A program made the position numbers and the translations under genes. A stretch of DNA of 16,140 nt from Bacteroidota bacterium (GTDB taxonomy: Bacteria > Bacteroidota > Bacteroidia > Chitinophagales > Chitinophagaceae): the NCBI GenBank assembly GCA_023390215.1, contig JAEWDG010000310.1:1-16140 (forward strand). Direction: 5' to 3'. The first letter of the stretch is position 1, and each line of letters starts with the position of its first letter. The notes beneath the pieces were generated by a model. It saw only the letters and a list, made by a program, of their open reading frames with translations, was not told where the DNA came from and ran no database searches. Below are positions 10,882 to 15,214 of this stretch, piece after piece.

Positions 10882-11544
10882 ATGACGATACACCGGGAAG
10901 GATTTAAATCTATTGCCATTGCTACGCTGATTTTTGGCGCCATCAACCTTGGTATATTCTGGTTTTTCCCCGCATCGTTGCTCTGGCTGAGTATGTGTTT
11001 GTTTGTGTTAAGCCTGGTGGTCTTTCTTTTAATCATTTCATTTTTTCGAATACCATCCCGTGAACTCACGCTGAGAGATGATCAGATCATTGCACCTGCT
11101 GATGGTAAAGTGGTCGTTATTGAAGAAGCAGTGGATGAAGAATATTTTAAGGGAAAGCGACTGCAGATTTCCGTTTTTATGAGTCCGCTCAATGTACATG
11201 TGAACCGGAATCCCATCGGTGGCGAAGTAGTGTACAATAAATATCATAAAGGAAAATATCTTGTTGCCTGGCATCCCAAATCCTCCACCGAAAACGAAAG
11301 GCATAGTGTAGTGATCCGTCATGGAAATTACGAAGTGTTGGTAAAACAGATCGCCGGTGCATTGGCTAAACGTATCGTAAATTATCTTGAGGTAGGACAG
11401 AAGGTTACGCAGGGGGCCGAAATGGGTTTCATAAAATTTGGCAGTCGCGTGGATCTTTTATTGCCCATCGGTACTACTGTGAACGTAAAGATGAATGAGG
11501 TGGTGCAGGGAGGCGTTACAGTGTTGGCAACATTGCCACAATAG
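10882..11544 (+). CDS. psd: Phosphatidylserine decarboxylase proenzyme, short (PSD-A) type
   Basis: Pyruvoyl-dependent enzyme, 220 aa, forming phosphatidylethanolamine, the step after CDP-diacylglycerol is used by phosphatidylserine synthase (not in this window). Two hydrophobic segments at about residues 10-28 and 32-54 anchor it. The self-cleavage site is Gly187-Ser188 in FIKFGSRVDLLLP, giving a beta chain of 187 and an alpha chain of 33 residues with the pyruvoyl group from Ser188. Probable partners of the self-cleavage triad are Asp74 (APADGKV) and His106 (LNVHVNRNPIGG). NERH at 138-141 is also conserved. It is the last gene of the protease-cdsA-psd unit; the hairpin at 11563-11589 follows. 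Confidence 0.95.
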   Translation: MTIHREGFKSIAIATLIFGAINLGIFWFFPASLLWLSMCLFVLSLVVFLLIISFFRIPSRELTLRDDQIIAPADGKVVVIEEAVDEEYFKGKRLQISVFMSPLNVHVNRNPIGGEVVYNKYHKGKYLVAWHPKSSTENERHSVVIRHGNYEVLVKQIAGALAKRIVNYLEVGQKVTQGAEMGFIKFGSRVDLLLPIGTTVNVKMNEVVQGGVTVLATLPQ

Positions 11545-11560
11545 TTTCAATCGTATTCTT

Positions 11561-11620
11561 AGCTCAGGTGTTCCGCAGGATCACCTGAGATGTATAATTC
11601 CAGCCAGATTCCATCTGGCA
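11561..11620 (+). repeat. Repeat copy 1 (intact two-hairpin element)
   Basis: First of two direct repeats spaced 120 bp apart. Hairpin 1: CTCAGGTG (11563-11570) pairs with CACCTGAG (11582-11589); inside, TCC-GCA-GGA can extend the stem past a T-T mismatch. Hairpin 2: GCCAGAT (11603-11609) pairs with ATCTGGC (11613-11619) around TCC. No T-run follows either arm, so it is not a classical terminator, though hairpin 1 is 18 nt after the psd stop and could stabilise or end that transcript. Confidence 0.75.
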
Positions 11621-11683
11621 GAAAACATTATTGTTTCAATCTTTCCGTTACTCAACTGCTTTATGTTTTTCACAGCTCTGTTC

Positions 11684-11730
11684 CGCAGGATCACCTGAGA
11701 AATATAATTCCATCCATATTCCATTTGGCG
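11684..11730 (+). repeat. Repeat copy 2 (degenerate)
   Basis: Second copy of the element at 11561-11620. A 22-nt core (11689-11710) is identical to 11569-11590. The left arm of hairpin 1 has lost three bases (AGG), leaving a bulged stem, and both arms of hairpin 2 carry changes (TCCATAT against ATTTGGC) that break pairing. This looks like decay after duplication. Confidence 0.75.
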
Positions 11731-11909
11731 AACAATAATTTAAATTTATTTCCAGGATTTCCTCTTCACACTTGCTTTTTTTCGCTCAAATTCCCGTCCA
11801 TTTTACATGGCTTTTTATGAAAGCTTTTTTCAATTTTGAAAGATTGATATTGGGCTTAAACCTCCAACATTGCGCGCGGTAACAAAAGGGATTGCTCCTT
11901 ATCATTAAT

Positions 11910-11970
11910 GGCGGAAATTCTGACACAGCGCCTAATCTGCAGGTAAGATCAATAAGTTAATTCTACTGCT
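11910..11970 (+). promoter_or_regulatory. Conserved 61-nt leader, copy 1 (before family A1)
   Basis: Begins GGCGGAAATTCTGACACAG and runs to the A1 ATG. Closely related copies lie before A2 and A3, each exactly 61 nt upstream of the ATG. A bulged hairpin can form: GGCG (11910-11913) and CTG (11920-11922) pair with CAGCGCC (11926-11932), with GAAATT bulged and an ACA loop. It is followed by ATCT (11935-11938) and AGAT (11946-11949) seven bases apart, a possible dyad operator. A 12-codon frame (11908-11946) here is not preserved as a start-to-stop frame in the other copies. Confidence 0.75.
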
Positions 11971-12423
11971 ATGAAATGGATCATTATCGTTTTATTTTCA
12001 GTTCTGTGTATTCCTGAATTAAAAGCACAATGCCCACCAGGCGAAGAACCTCATGTTGTTTTTGATTGCGATTTCAGGCTACATCGGAATAAGTTCGCTT
12101 GTAAAAAAGGTTTCTGGTTTTGTTACCGGTGCGAATGGAAAGTAAAATGTTGGCCGACAACAAAGTCTGCTTCCTTAGGAATGGTATATGCAAGAATCGT
12201 TGACAACAAATTCTTCGAGTTTCATTTTTCAAACGAAGTCATAGAAAAGCAAAATTTTACAGAAAAAGAGAAATCTGTATTCAATGTTGACGATGCTTTG
12301 ATCTTCGAAATCGATAATAAAAGAATTCAGCTGGTCGTTGGGGAATACCCGACCAATCAACTCGATGACGAACTTATTGTACAGGTCCCTTTTAAAACAC
12401 TTAAAAGTGAGGCCGGAGAGTAA
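11971..12423 (+). CDS. Secreted six-cysteine protein of unknown function, family A member 1
   Basis: 150 aa, not recognised. Signal peptide MKWIIIVLFSVLCIPELKA, with cleavage predicted before QCPPG. The Q just before the cysteine argues against a lipobox, so it is likely periplasmic or exported, not a lipoprotein. Mature cysteines: 21, 33, 44, 51, 54 and 60, all in the N-terminal half around HRNKFACKKGFWFCYRCEWK, allowing three disulfides. The C-terminal half (residues 72-143) carries the family's conserved blocks FHFSNEVIEKQNF, FNVDDALIFE and GEYPTNQ, ending LIVQVPFK. No cysteine and no known catalytic motif lies there. Start chosen by the signal peptide and identical spacing to the leader in all three copies. 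Terminator at 12472-12491. Confidence 0.85.
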   Translation: MKWIIIVLFSVLCIPELKAQCPPGEEPHVVFDCDFRLHRNKFACKKGFWFCYRCEWKVKCWPTTKSASLGMVYARIVDNKFFEFHFSNEVIEKQNFTEKEKSVFNVDDALIFEIDNKRIQLVVGEYPTNQLDDELIVQVPFKTLKSEAGE

Positions 12424-12471
12424 TCAATAAACCTGAACAGTCTGGGGCTACTGATAAACTACGTTTTTTTC

Positions 12472-12491
12472 TCCCTGAAAAGGGATTTTTT
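12472..12491 (+). terminator. Rho-independent terminator after family A1
   Basis: TCCCT (12472-12476) pairs with AGGGA (12481-12485) around a GAAA tetraloop, followed by six T. Short stem but a stable loop and good T-run, 49 nt after the A1 stop. Confidence 0.65.
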
Positions 12492-12594
12492 AACGCATCG
12501 GCTTTAGTTGCGTTGCTACAACTTTGGAATACCGTAGAATATATCTGGTCTCCTTGCTGAAGCAACTGGTTAATCTCCGCAAACGTTTTTTTCA

Positions 12595-12655
12595 GGCGGA
12601 AATTCTGACACAGCGCCTAATCTGGAGGTAAGATCAATAATTTAATTCTACTACT
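12595..12655 (+). promoter_or_regulatory. Conserved 61-nt leader, copy 2 (before family A2)
   Basis: Nearly identical to the leader at 11910, differing mainly by CTGGAGG for CTGCAGG and small changes near the ATG. The bulged hairpin is kept: GGCG (12595-12598) and CTG (12605-12607) with CAGCGCC (12611-12617), extended by an A-T pair outside. The GGAGG sequence lies about 28 nt before the ATG, too far for a ribosome binding site of A2. The preceding 103 bp of spacer holds no recognised gene. Confidence 0.75.
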
Positions 12656-13093
12656 ATGAAATGGTTTCTAATCACAATTTTGAGTTTGTCTGCATTTTCA
12701 GAAATTGATGCACAATGTCCGTTGGGAGAATACCAGGTTGTGGTGTATTCCTGTGATTTCGAATTTCACCGGCCAAAGTTTGATTGTAAAAAGGGCTTTT
12801 GGTTCTGTTTTACCAATTGCCATTGGGAGAAAAAATGTATTACAAAACCTGCCAGTGGCTTTTACAATTTTGTATATGCAAAAATTGCAGAAGGTGAATA
12901 TCTGGAATTCCATTTTCCAAATACCGTGATCGAAAAGCAGAATTTCTCTAAAGAAGAAATATCTCTGTTTAATGTTGACGATCCTTTGGTTTTCGAATTT
13001 AATAAGCAAAAGCTGCAGTTGATCACCGGCGATTACCCTACAAAACAGGAAAAAGAGGAGTTAATTGTTTTGGTGCCATTTAAGAGTCTTTAA
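12656..13093 (+). CDS. Secreted six-cysteine protein of unknown function, family A member 2
   Basis: 145 aa, clearly homologous to A1 and A3 along its length; function not recognised. Signal peptide MKWFLITILSLSAFSEIDA, cleavage before QCPLG. Cysteines at 21, 33, 44, 51, 55 and 61; compared with A1 the fifth has moved by one (CFTNC against CYRC). The HRPKFDCKKGFWFC core and the C-terminal blocks FHFPNTVIEKQNF, FNVDDPLVFE and GDYPTKQ, then EELIVLVPFKSL, are conserved. Preceded by its own copy of the leader and followed closely by a strong terminator (13100-13136), so it is a single-gene unit. Confidence 0.87.
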   Translation: MKWFLITILSLSAFSEIDAQCPLGEYQVVVYSCDFEFHRPKFDCKKGFWFCFTNCHWEKKCITKPASGFYNFVYAKIAEGEYLEFHFPNTVIEKQNFSKEEISLFNVDDPLVFEFNKQKLQLITGDYPTKQEKEELIVLVPFKSL

Positions 13094-13099
13094 TTTCAT

Positions 13100-13136
13100 A
13101 ATGGAAACAGTTAATTTTAATTGTTTCCATTTTTTT
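13100..13136 (+). terminator. Rho-independent terminator after family A2
   Basis: AATGGAAACA (13100-13109) pairs perfectly with TGTTTCCATT (13122-13131); the loop itself holds a TTAA...TTAA palindrome; seven T follow from 13130. It begins 6 nt after the A2 stop and ends 12 nt before the B1 start, isolating the two genes. Confidence 0.9.
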
Positions 13137-13148
13137 AAATCATAAATT

Positions 13149-13673
13149 ATGAGAGTAATAGTTACAGTTGTTCTCACGCTTGGCTTAGTGTTTTCTTTAG
13201 AAGCGAGTTGTCAGCGGAAATTTGAAGTTGACAAAAACTGGCTTAGTAAGGAATTTTCTAAGAGAAGCAATCTGTTGATTTTAAATAAAGAAGGGTTTGA
13301 ATCCTGGGTTCATATTATTGATGACTATGATCCTTCCAGTTTGATTTTAGGCTATTATATTCATGACTCATTATTCATTTATAATGCGGACAGGAGTAGA
13401 ACAAATGAGTCGTGCATGGGCGTTACTGATGGCCGTTTAAATACGTTTGCGGATTCTGTGTTGCCTTTTTGCCAATATGCAAAAATGCAGTTTTTTAAAG
13501 ATCAATATTTTTGGCAAAGGAAGCCAGGGAAGCCTGAAGCAGCTACGATGATCGTGCTATATAGCCGGCATTACGGCATGACGCACAGGAAATTTATCCG
13601 GAAGGTCGAAGAATATTCTTTGAAAACCGGAAGACCATATGTTTTATTGTTTGCAGATTACGCTGTTGAATGA
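13149..13673 (+). CDS. Secreted protein of unknown function, family B member 1
   Basis: 174 aa, not recognised, paralogous to the next gene over its full length. Signal peptide MRVIVTVVLTLGLVFSLEAS, then CQRKFE. The residue three before Cys21 is Glu, so a lipobox is unlikely but not excluded. Conserved with B2: WLSKEFSKRSNLLILNKEGF-type N-terminal region, the core SLILGYYIHDSLFIY, CMGV, FADSVLPFCQY and the tail PYVLLFADYAVE. Cysteines at 21, 89 and 108 are shared. No catalytic motif is recognisable. It starts with ATGAGA and lacks the family A leader; B2 shares only a short CATTTTT...AAATC sequence before the ATG. Confidence 0.83.
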   Translation: MRVIVTVVLTLGLVFSLEASCQRKFEVDKNWLSKEFSKRSNLLILNKEGFESWVHIIDDYDPSSLILGYYIHDSLFIYNADRSRTNESCMGVTDGRLNTFADSVLPFCQYAKMQFFKDQYFWQRKPGKPEAATMIVLYSRHYGMTHRKFIRKVEEYSLKTGRPYVLLFADYAVE

Positions 13674-13699
13674 AGGAATCGCTCCAATGCTTTCCTTCA
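13671..13699 (+). other. Inverted repeat at the B1 stop codon
   Basis: TGAAGGAA (13671-13678, beginning at the TGA stop) pairs with TTCCTTCA (13692-13699). There is no T-run, so it is at best a weak or factor-dependent terminator or a 3'-end stabiliser in the 87-nt gap between B1 and B2. Confidence 0.45.
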
Positions 13700-13760
13700 A
13701 AACGCTTTCAGATCGCCCGACTATGTTAATAATTTGATTGTTCATTTTTAAATCCCCACT

Positions 13761-14288
13761 ATGAGAATTTTTTCAGCTTTTATTTTTTCAATTGGCCTTT
13801 TTATATCGTTTAATGGTAATTGTCAGAGAACAATGGAAGATTCAAGAAGGTGGTTGAACAAGCAGATTTCCAGGCGCAATAACCTGGTAGTTTTAAACAG
13901 TACGGGTTTTAATGAGTGGGGTAAACTCCTTAGTACCTACAATCCTCAAAGCTTAATTTTAGGATACTTTGTGAAAGATTCATTTTTTATTTATCATCCA
14001 ATATCCTCCACTGACAGAAAGGAAGCATGTACGGGTGTGATGGCTGATCTGATAGAATCATTCGTAGACTCAGTAAAACCCTATTGCAGATATTCGGAAT
14101 TTCAATTAATTAAAAAAGAAAATTTCCGGAACTATGATCCTGCAAAATCTGAAGGACAAACCATGGTGATCCTGTTTACCCGGTCATACATGATTTTAAA
14201 TAAGAAATTATATAAAGATGTGAATCAATATTTCAAAGAAAATCAAATACCATATATTTTGCTTTTCGGAGATTTCGCAGTTGATTAA
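13761..14288 (+). CDS. Secreted protein of unknown function, family B member 2
   Basis: 175 aa, tandem paralogue of B1. Signal peptide MRIFSAFIFSIGLFISFNGN followed by CQRTME. Shared with B1: RRWLNKQISRRNNLVVLNSTG region, SLILGYFVKDSFFIY, CTGV, FVDSVKPYCRY, TMVILFTRSY and PYILLFGDFAVD. Cysteines at 21, 90 and 109 align with those of B1. The alternating hydrophobic strands and a terminal FGDFAVD / FADYAVE motif suggest a compact alpha/beta secreted domain, but no known family can be named. Its terminator (14321-14344) is strong; a hairpin without T-run at 13671-13699 separates it from B1. Confidence 0.83.
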   Translation: MRIFSAFIFSIGLFISFNGNCQRTMEDSRRWLNKQISRRNNLVVLNSTGFNEWGKLLSTYNPQSLILGYFVKDSFFIYHPISSTDRKEACTGVMADLIESFVDSVKPYCRYSEFQLIKKENFRNYDPAKSEGQTMVILFTRSYMILNKKLYKDVNQYFKENQIPYILLFGDFAVD

Positions 14289-14320
14289 AAAAGCTGATAC
14301 GAACATATTACATTGAATAT

Positions 14321-14344
14321 AAAGAAGGCACGGCCTTCTTTTTT
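14321..14344 (+). terminator. Rho-independent terminator after family B2
   Basis: AAAGAAGGC (14321-14329) pairs perfectly with GCCTTCTTT (14333-14341) around ACG and is followed by further T to 14344. It lies 33 nt after the B2 stop. Confidence 0.88.
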
Positions 14345-14357
14345 ATTATGACCCTAA

Positions 14358-14378
14358 ACCACCACATCTTGCGGTGGT
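14358..14378 (+). other. Hairpin in the 333-bp gap between B2 and A3
   Basis: ACCACC (14358-14363) pairs with GGTGGT (14373-14378) with an inner CA/TG pair, no T-run. The rest of the gap (14379-14560) is AT-rich with no supported gene: a 37-codon frame at 14398-14511 lacks protein character. The A3 leader fills 14561-14621. Confidence 0.4.
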
Positions 14379-14560
14379 AATTTACTTTTCGCTGAGGATG
14401 AAGCTGCTTGTTTTTAGAAGAATTTTCTTATGTATCTGCGATTATTCAAACAGAATTTTCACAACATTAAGTTTGAATTTCGAAACATTAACGTCATTCA
14501 CATTTTCTTAGTTATGCGCGCAGCTTATGAACAGTGAAATTTTTTATTAAAAGCGTTAAT

Positions 14561-14621
14561 GGCGGAAAATTCTGACGCAGCGCCCAATCTGCAGGTAAGA
14601 TCATCTAATAATTCTACTACT
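14561..14621 (+). promoter_or_regulatory. Conserved 61-nt leader, copy 3 (before family A3)
   Basis: Same element as at 11910 and 12595, with one inserted A (GGCGGAAAATTCTGACGCAG) compensated by a one-base loss near the ATG, so the 61-nt distance is kept. Hairpin arms are unchanged: GGCG (14561-14564) and CTG (14572-14574) with CAGCGCC (14578-14584); the loop is ACG instead of ACA. The leader is open in frame with A3 from an ATG at 14559, but that is a by-product of the inserted base. Confidence 0.75.
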
Positions 14622-15059
14622 ATGAAATGGTTTGTTGTTATTTTTTTATGCATTTTTTCACTCCAGGAAATCAAAGCTCAATGTCCTCCAGGAACGACGC
14701 TGACTTATGTTTACACTTGCGACCTCGTATTTCACCGGCCAAAATTTGATTGTTTGAGAGGGTTTTGGTTTTGCTGCAAGGATAAACATTTTGAAATTAA
14801 GTGTGTTCCTACCAATCACATGGGGTCTGTTGGATATATTTACGGAAGAATAATTGAGGGAGATTACATGGAGTTTCATTTTCCGAACGACGTAATCAAA
14901 AAGCAAAATTTTACAAAAGAAGAAGTTGCGGTCTTCAATGTGGATGATGCGTTGGAATTTGAGGACGGAAAAGATAAAATTAAACTCATCACCGGCGATT
15001 ATCCTACTATTCAGCAAAAGGAGGAGTTGATTGTCAGAGTGCCCTTTAAAAGAGGCTGA
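14622..15059 (+). CDS. Secreted six-cysteine protein of unknown function, family A member 3
   Basis: 145 aa. The frame is open from an ATG at 14559, but I start at 14622 because MKWFVVIFLCIFSLQEIKA is the signal peptide equivalent to those of A1 and A2 and the extra codons are the shared non-coding leader. Cleavage is expected before QCPPG. Mature cysteines: 21, 33, 44, 51, 52 and 61; the fourth and fifth are adjacent (FWFCCKDKHF), unlike A1 and A2. C-terminal blocks FHFPNDVIKKQNF, FNVDDALEFE and GDYPTIQ, then EELIVRVPFK, match the family. It is separated from A1/A2 by the two B genes. Strong terminator at 15064-15102. Confidence 0.87.
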   Translation: MKWFVVIFLCIFSLQEIKAQCPPGTTLTYVYTCDLVFHRPKFDCLRGFWFCCKDKHFEIKCVPTNHMGSVGYIYGRIIEGDYMEFHFPNDVIKKQNFTKEEVAVFNVDDALEFEDGKDKIKLITGDYPTIQQKEELIVRVPFKRG

Positions 15060-15063
15060 TCAG

Positions 15064-15102
15064 AAAAAGGAAGCAGCCCGAACAGGAGCTGTTTCCTTTT
15101 TT
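15064..15102 (+). terminator. Rho-independent terminator after family A3
   Basis: AAAAAGGAAGCAGC (15064-15077) pairs with GCTGTTTCCTTTTT (15088-15101), 14 bp with one G-T wobble, loop of ten, ending in a T-run. It starts 5 nt after the A3 stop. The A-run on the left side could make it work in both directions. Confidence 0.9.
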
Positions 15103-15214
15103 ATAGTCCCTGGTTTTAGAGAATCTGATATTTCAGAATCATACGGAATCGGCCGGAAAATATTAAAAACCCATATCCTGATTTTTTCCGATTTTACACC
15201 CGAAATACTGATAC

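Follow-up and report, generated by a model that had tools for sequence, protein, structure and literature searches.

The DNA stretch analyzed here (referred to as the window) comprises 16,140 nt of contig JAEWDG010000310.1 of a Bacteroidota bacterium (Chitinophagaceae) and carries three paralogous genes for secreted proteins, A1, A2, and A3, each preceded by a near-identical leader. Comparison of the sequences indicates that this leader is probably a cis-regulatory RNA of exported-protein genes, adopting a DUF805-like H-type pseudoknot. A cis-regulatory RNA had been among the options named in an earlier, sequence-only reading of the window, and it is favoured here because both the stem and the pseudoknot show compensatory changes in other genomes. 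The element, which is undescribed, was found among a group of Bacteroidota bacteria. It is a structured RNA motif supported by covariation, for which a search of Rfam release 15 gave no matching family, and the exported-protein genes that it precedes are probably under common control.

The three leaders are located on the forward strand at positions 11910–11970 (copy 1), 12595–12655 (copy 2), and 14561–14621 (copy 3), are 61 nt long each and directly abut the ATG codons at 11971, 12656, and 14622, exactly as the sequence-only reading had placed them. Each consists of the pseudoknot element and a spacer, which is 22 nt long before the ATG of A1 and 21 nt long in copy 3. In copy 1, stem 1 is composed of GGCG (11910–11913) and CGCC (11929–11932), and the pseudoknot of TCT (11919–11921) and AGA (11946–11948). 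The corresponding strands are localized at 12595–12598/12614–12617 and 12604–12606/12631–12633 in copy 2, and at 14561–14564/14581–14584 and 14571–14573/14598–14600 in copy 3. The structured model R3 scored the copies at 62.1, 62.2, and 57.4 bits, respectively, and yielded only these three in the window (E ≤ 5), which agrees with the earlier remark that the intervening B genes lack the leader. Copies 1 and 2 are identical at 58 of 61 positions, while each of them matches copy 3 in 55 of 63 columns (four gap columns in each comparison); the one-base gain in copy 3 and the one-base loss that had been said to balance it are both real. The 30-base blocks flanking the leaders on the 5' side have just 4–14 of 30 positions in common. 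A 26-mer core (≤3 mismatches) was found at all three copies and at no other site of the window, and a 23-mer core (≤3 mismatches) only at copies 1 and 2, as copy 3 has an indel inside it (mean of 0.00 matches in 200 shuffles for both cores).

Two predicted helices, GGCG:CGCC and TCY:RGA, were shown by sequence comparison to be supported by compensatory change. In a plain MAFFT alignment of seven sequences, not fitted to structure (A11), 100% of the stem 1 cells pair, with double changes in three of the four pairs, and 90.5% of the pseudoknot cells pair, with one doubly changed pair. In the 25-row alignment (A12), which was fitted to stem 1, 95.9% of the stem 1 cells pair and all four pairs are doubly changed; for the pseudoknot, which was never part of a model, pairing was found in 97.3% of 75 cells (pair types UA/UG/CG and CG/UG/UA). 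The pseudoknot has seven double-change cells, where shuffles have 2.6 and none of 500 reaches seven, and a covariation score of 0.464 versus 0.07–0.27 for slid versions; when partners were slid by 1–3 columns, pairing and change counts fell strongly for both helices. The window copies carry TCT:AGA, as does L165, and most relatives TCC:GGA or TCT:GGA. The bulged hairpin proposed in the sequence-only reading is thus partly retained: its outer GGCG:CGCC stem stands, whereas half of the members lack the inner CTG:CAG pairing (the middle pair cannot form in 12 of the 24 sequences that have bases at these columns), because its U is the variable pseudoknot base. An ATCT-N7-AGAT dyad, described in the same reading as kept, is not, as AGAT is found in 0 of 22 relatives. 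CAG:CTG was also considered as a third helix and rejected, as it pairs but hardly varies and therefore yields no covariation.

The covariance search of related genomes that the sequence-only reading had proposed was carried out, and the element was found elsewhere, with compensatory changes in the stem and the pseudoknot. A sequence-only profile (R1), built from the three leaders and from locus L001 of the nearest genome found (DusB 88% identical), was run on 93 genomes of the genus of that nearest genome. It gave 49 matches (E ≤ 0.1), of which loci L104–L114 and L115–L134 were viewed; several lie before unrelated genes for secreted proteins, with an unchanged distance to the ATG. Loci L108–L110, L112, L113, L116, and L119–L134 were dropped as coding DNA or as lacking the core and the spaced ATG. 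A covariance model of seven sequences (R2) matched at E ≤ 2e-8 in nine of the 93 genus genomes and at E ≤ 1e-6 in eight of 294 genomes of the family, and gave 55.5, 56.2, and 48.3 bits for three sequences outside its seed (copy 1, copy 2, and L106, respectively). Eleven of the 34 matches of the genus search (E ≤ 0.05) were kept; among the weak rows, viewing covered L145–L153 and L155, all of which were discarded, and the second match in genome G671 (L117, L163) was excluded as near-identical to L107 and cut by a contig end. In the family search, 11 of 36 matches (E ≤ 0.01) were kept, L173–L184 and L187 were viewed and dropped, and the rest remained unviewed. R3, run on 228 genomes of the order, matched in two of them at E ≤ 1e-4, both already known from the family search. 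These genome counts are lower bounds, because the samples may overlap and the multi-genome searches used stricter filters, scoring a part of the candidates. Altogether 25 elements were kept, i.e., three in the window plus 22 spread over 19 other genomes, the weakest being L144 (25.4 bits), L164 (22.5 bits), and L186 (20.3 bits). Two further sequences, L115 266–333 (GGCG:CGCC) and L001 7923–7989 (GGTG:CACC), are probable long-loop variants and were set aside; the A leader of L001 keeps CAGCRCC..TCTGnGGGTTA, and its GGTG:CACC could pair around an enlarged loop, like that of L115.

The position of the element relative to the gene is strongly constrained. Stem 1 starts 58–65 nt before the ATG in 22 of 25 cases (54, 74, and 90 nt in the others), and the pseudoknot ends 20–22 nt before it in 21 of 25 (16, 24, 30, and 49 nt in the others). 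The downstream proteins of the 25 elements form 15 groups, between which BLAST gives no link at E ≤ 1e-3. All of them pass a lenient signal-peptide criterion (22 of 22 outside the window), which is also passed by 34 of 77 mechanical background open reading frames (ORFs) of at least 150 aa; the counts include two doubtful downstream ORFs, those of L195 (68 aa, 90 nt away) and L169 (52 aa). A lipoprotein-like family from six loci in six genomes (L107, L118, L141, L143, L164, and L171) makes up the largest group; its members, judged by eye, share the N-terminal part and have unlike C-terminal parts. It is also worth mentioning that matches to group II intron domains surround one element in L104 (860–935, 2193–2268, and 2379–2454); two of these matches exceed the cut-off and the third narrowly misses it. 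Within the 75 nt upstream of the elements, just six columns reach ≥60% agreement. Perfect TAnnTTTG boxes, the −7 box of Bacteroidota, number 10 in these upstream stretches versus 2.1 ± 1.4 in shuffles, and this excess suggests that ordinary promoters may lie upstream of the element. The sequence-only reading had seen no such box; near copy 3 there is in fact one perfect box, at 14468, 93 nt upstream of the element.

Several observations weigh against a regulatory RNA. The number of pseudoknot pairs with a double change does not exceed that in shuffles (144 of 500 as high), nor do the further pair types of the pseudoknot (168 of 500) or of the whole structure (436 of 500). The helices are short (four and three pairs), the window copies are identical to each other at every paired base, and the kinship of the sequences inflates the double-change counts of A12, the alignment fitted to stem 1. 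Single-sequence folding, with a program that does not handle pseudoknots, gave no excess over shuffles (z of −0.14, 0.30, and 0.63), and the near-invariant CAG and CTG segments find no explanation in the fold. TAnnTTTG combined with TTG at 17–23 nt occurs six times versus 3.4 ± 2.0, with no clear enrichment. Finally, L001, which among A homologues with a whole genome is the closest, is missed by both R2 and R3 and for this reason is counted as probable only; a window-only profile finds it weakly (2.8 bits, 1 of 500 shuffles as high).

If the leader acts as RNA, it would be a small cis-acting element of the 5' untranslated region, presumably transcribed together with its gene. Stem 1 (GGCG:CGCC) would enclose a loop, of which TCY would pair with the downstream RGA to form an H-type pseudoknot, and this predicted fold would end about 21 nt before the start codon. 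Formation and opening of the pseudoknot may gate translation initiation (or the fate of the mRNA), the folded state possibly being set by a small ligand or an RNA-binding protein. By its topology and position the element would work like DUF805b, which holds the same place before A homologues.

The main rival is a DNA promoter or operator, in which an alternative sigma factor or a regulator would read the leader as a −35 region, a −10 region, and a short untranslated region; we consider it rather unlikely. The conserved block has an abrupt start at GGCGGAAATT and a length that would accommodate a promoter, and copies 1 and 2 hold a weak sigma-70-like CTGACA-N18-TAAGAT (13 such matches in the region versus 10.7 in shuffles). 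There is no conservation on the 5' side of the block, yet terminator-like hairpins follow A1 and A2, so a promoter could sit inside it. However, two interleaved helices keep their pairing through double changes, for which a duplex DNA site has no reason, the excess of perfect TAnnTTTG boxes lies upstream and at variable distances, and the tight constraint is on the distance to the ATG. A sigma-54 site was also considered and dropped because the spacing differs in copy 3.

The near identity of the three leaders inside one genome could also be maintained by gene conversion, which appears very improbable, as the same element is conserved in other genomes and conversion tracts would hardly be expected to have GGCGG and the ATG as their limits in every copy. 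Moreover, the copy 3 leader tracks its own gene. P0004, an A3 orthologue from another source with a predicted N-terminal extension that corresponds to the translated leader, has the reading length of copy 3, which is evidence against homogenisation; at least five bases have changed over the 69 nt that precede the ATG, compared with at least 39 over the following 66 nt.

That a recent duplication simply brought upstream DNA along is hardly credible, even though the A genes are paralogues within one cluster. The A1, A2, and A3 proteins are 49–57% identical pairwise, and the proportion of synonymous differences (pS, NG86 counts) between their genes is 0.81, 0.77, and 0.86, i.e., saturated, versus 5–13% differences (87–95% identity) between the leaders; among the fourfold sites common to the gene pairs, 7 of 19, 5 of 23, and 7 of 19 are identical. 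The coding parts have therefore diverged far more than the leader, as the sequence-only reading had stated, and the synonymous-site comparison bears out its leaning towards selection on the leader. Recent duplication is insufficient because synonymous sites are saturated while the leaders remain alike and the copy 3 leader is kept in the orthologue. Each paralogue has relatives from other sources that are closer than the other window paralogues (within-group identity of 72–79% for A1, 58–79% for A2, and 74–83% for A3). Two other contigs (7370 and 12254 bases) each hold one member of every A group, so the duplications look older than the lineages compared, as far as these sequences indicate. 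According to the sequence-only reading, absence of the element from other A homologues would leave recent duplication as a sufficient explanation. Most A homologues in related genomes do lack it, which makes a tie of the element to A genes alone too narrow, but duplication still does not suffice, because many of these homologues carry DUF805b there and the element also stands before unrelated genes.

Equally implausible is a coding role of the leader as an N-terminal extension: the frame of copy 3 is open from 14559 and P0004 was predicted with such an extension, but the frame of copy 3 is shifted by one base with respect to copies 1 and 2, neither of which is crossed by a long ORF, relatives have indels in the leader while the pairs persist, and the signal-peptide-like stretch begins at the ATG used here.

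The surroundings of the leaders, all on the forward strand, comprise A1 (11971–12423, a 150-aa secreted protein), A2 (12656–13093, 145 aa, secreted), the secreted-protein genes B1 (13149–13673) and B2 (13761–14288), which are partner genes without the leader, and A3 (14622–15059, 145 aa, secreted). Hairpins resembling intrinsic terminators, consensus matches only, are located 3' of A1 (12472–12485) and of A2 (13100–13131). A and B form a conserved gene pair, as B-like ORFs follow A in L001, L006, L007, L057, L060, L062, L064, L072, and L081 (E values from 4e-76 to 0.002 among the matches listed). Neither A, B nor four sampled downstream proteins reached a Pfam family cut-off, and a fold search of the PDB with A and B gave no match at E ≤ 0.001; the best VIA Z for A was 3.2. 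The exact leader pattern was not found in viral contigs, no A relative was confirmed there, and a search of plasmids for A relatives gave no match. Two 51-nt direct repeats, 90% identical and 110 nt apart, precede A1 (11569–11619 and 11679–11729), the first of which holds the dyads CTCAGGTG..CACCTGAG and GCCAGAT..ATCTGGC.

A palindrome, TCAAYGGCCATTGA, is located just upstream of many A-family leaders of related genomes; it was found in 20 of 93 genomes, at one place in each (on two contigs in one genome), and in 18 of these 20 it stands before A. At A loci of the genus (e.g., L006, L058, and L061), the palindrome is preceded by a promoter-like block without gaps, TTAAGYG-N30-CAATTTTAC, and this block is conserved in most of the 25–26 leaders compared. 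The full promoter-like profile of the genus has no match before the window genes; the score of its promoter part by itself, at −230 of A1, was equalled by 1 of 200 shuffles (12 of 200 for A3 and 174 of 200 for A2) and was not counted as a find. In L086 and L087 (1501 in both), a palindrome, TCAATGGCCATTGA, and a DUF805b-like leader precede genes for peptides; we take the peptides to be double-glycine leader peptides and the ORFs near L087 to encode CPBP-like proteases. Over 5.4 kb of locus L047 (G351:C6 43815–49158), eight matches of the DUF805/DUF805b type (E ≤ 0.01, some below the cut-off) precede a series of different small genes; two of the eight, separated by 211 nt, share their core. In L053 (2292–2356), a DUF805 RNA directly precedes a gene that reads as a proteorhodopsin (a name taken from sequence reading). 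In L066 (~1338–1375) the DUF805b consensus is lost and there is no Rfam match; a stem CGGTT/AACCG and a pseudoknot GCTTT/AAAGC are possible pairings seen by eye.

Amongst known RNAs, small H-pseudoknot riboswitches of the preQ1-I type resemble the element in size and in the pseudoknot order before the start codon, but differ in that no Rfam riboswitch family matches window positions 11500–15200 (E ≤ 1) and in the exported-protein genes of the element. The second part of DUF805 (RF03081, clan CL00115) is a hairpin of this kind, in which CCGA and GUAGGAA precede the start codon; DUF805 differs in an extra upstream hairpin, GUGGAG..ACCAC, which was not seen at the element: no first hairpin of the DUF805 type (GUGGAGaCCAGAaACCAC) was noticed by eye in the 75 nt upstream of the 25 elements, and RF03081 has no match in window positions 11500–15200 (E ≤ 1).

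DUF805b (RF02914, of the same clan) is a small RNA element close before the ATG with the same topology, in the order stem 1, loop start of GGAA or similar, CCGA in the loop, stem, and GUAGG downstream; its end is 13–25 nt ahead of the ATG at 17 of the 18 sites inspected. Before A genes, its leaders have the same helix between the loop and the downstream sequence, while the Rfam model holds stem 1 only. DUF805b precedes A homologues in 17 of 31 A-family loci scanned, at least one of which (L063) has no upstream DNA and some pairs of which are near-identical, and 5 of the 17 are over the family cut-off (35.6 bits, curated); the G001 locus, kept apart, has no DUF805b match. The element thus shares the H-type pseudoknot and the place just before the start codon with DUF805b, but its covariance-model score does not place it in the family: RF02914 was not found in window positions 11500–15200 (E ≤ 1) or around copy 1 (E ≤ 10), and neither RF02914 nor RF03081 was found (E ≤ 1) in 20 of the 22 loci that hold relatives, L195 and L196 being outside the scan. 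Homology of the window leaders to the DUF805b-type A leaders was not detectable by profile alignment (34, 36, 244, and 106 of 300 shuffles as high for copies 1, 2, 3, and L001, respectively), compared with controls at 0 of 100 (L086, L087, L079, and L066), 2 of 100 (L064), and 20 of 100 (L081); nhmmer with the same DUF805b-type leaders gave no match. Because no relationship to these leaders was detectable by profile alignment, the element is filed as working like DUF805b, outside RF02914.

We know of no function for DUF805-type RNAs, and a listing-level literature search gave nothing under the name DUF805b, nor on DUF805 as an RNA motif, and a single entry under the accession RF02914. Compared with DUF805b, the element has a longer loop (GACACAG versus GAAAA), near-invariant CAG and CTG segments, a longer linker, a TCY:RGA pseudoknot instead of GCC:GGC and, among the cases found, only exported-protein genes downstream. 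We tentatively suggest that it may represent a new class of small pseudoknotted regulatory RNA (a riboswitch or a protein-bound switch) marking an exported-protein regulon in one family of Bacteroidota and exchanged with the distinct DUF805b before homologous A-B pairs, both possibly being read by the same signal or factor. Homologous gene pairs that have this element in some cases and DUF805b in others at one and the same position offer a comparison that makes function testable, and a shared regulon logic, if true, would be a way into the function of DUF805-type RNAs.

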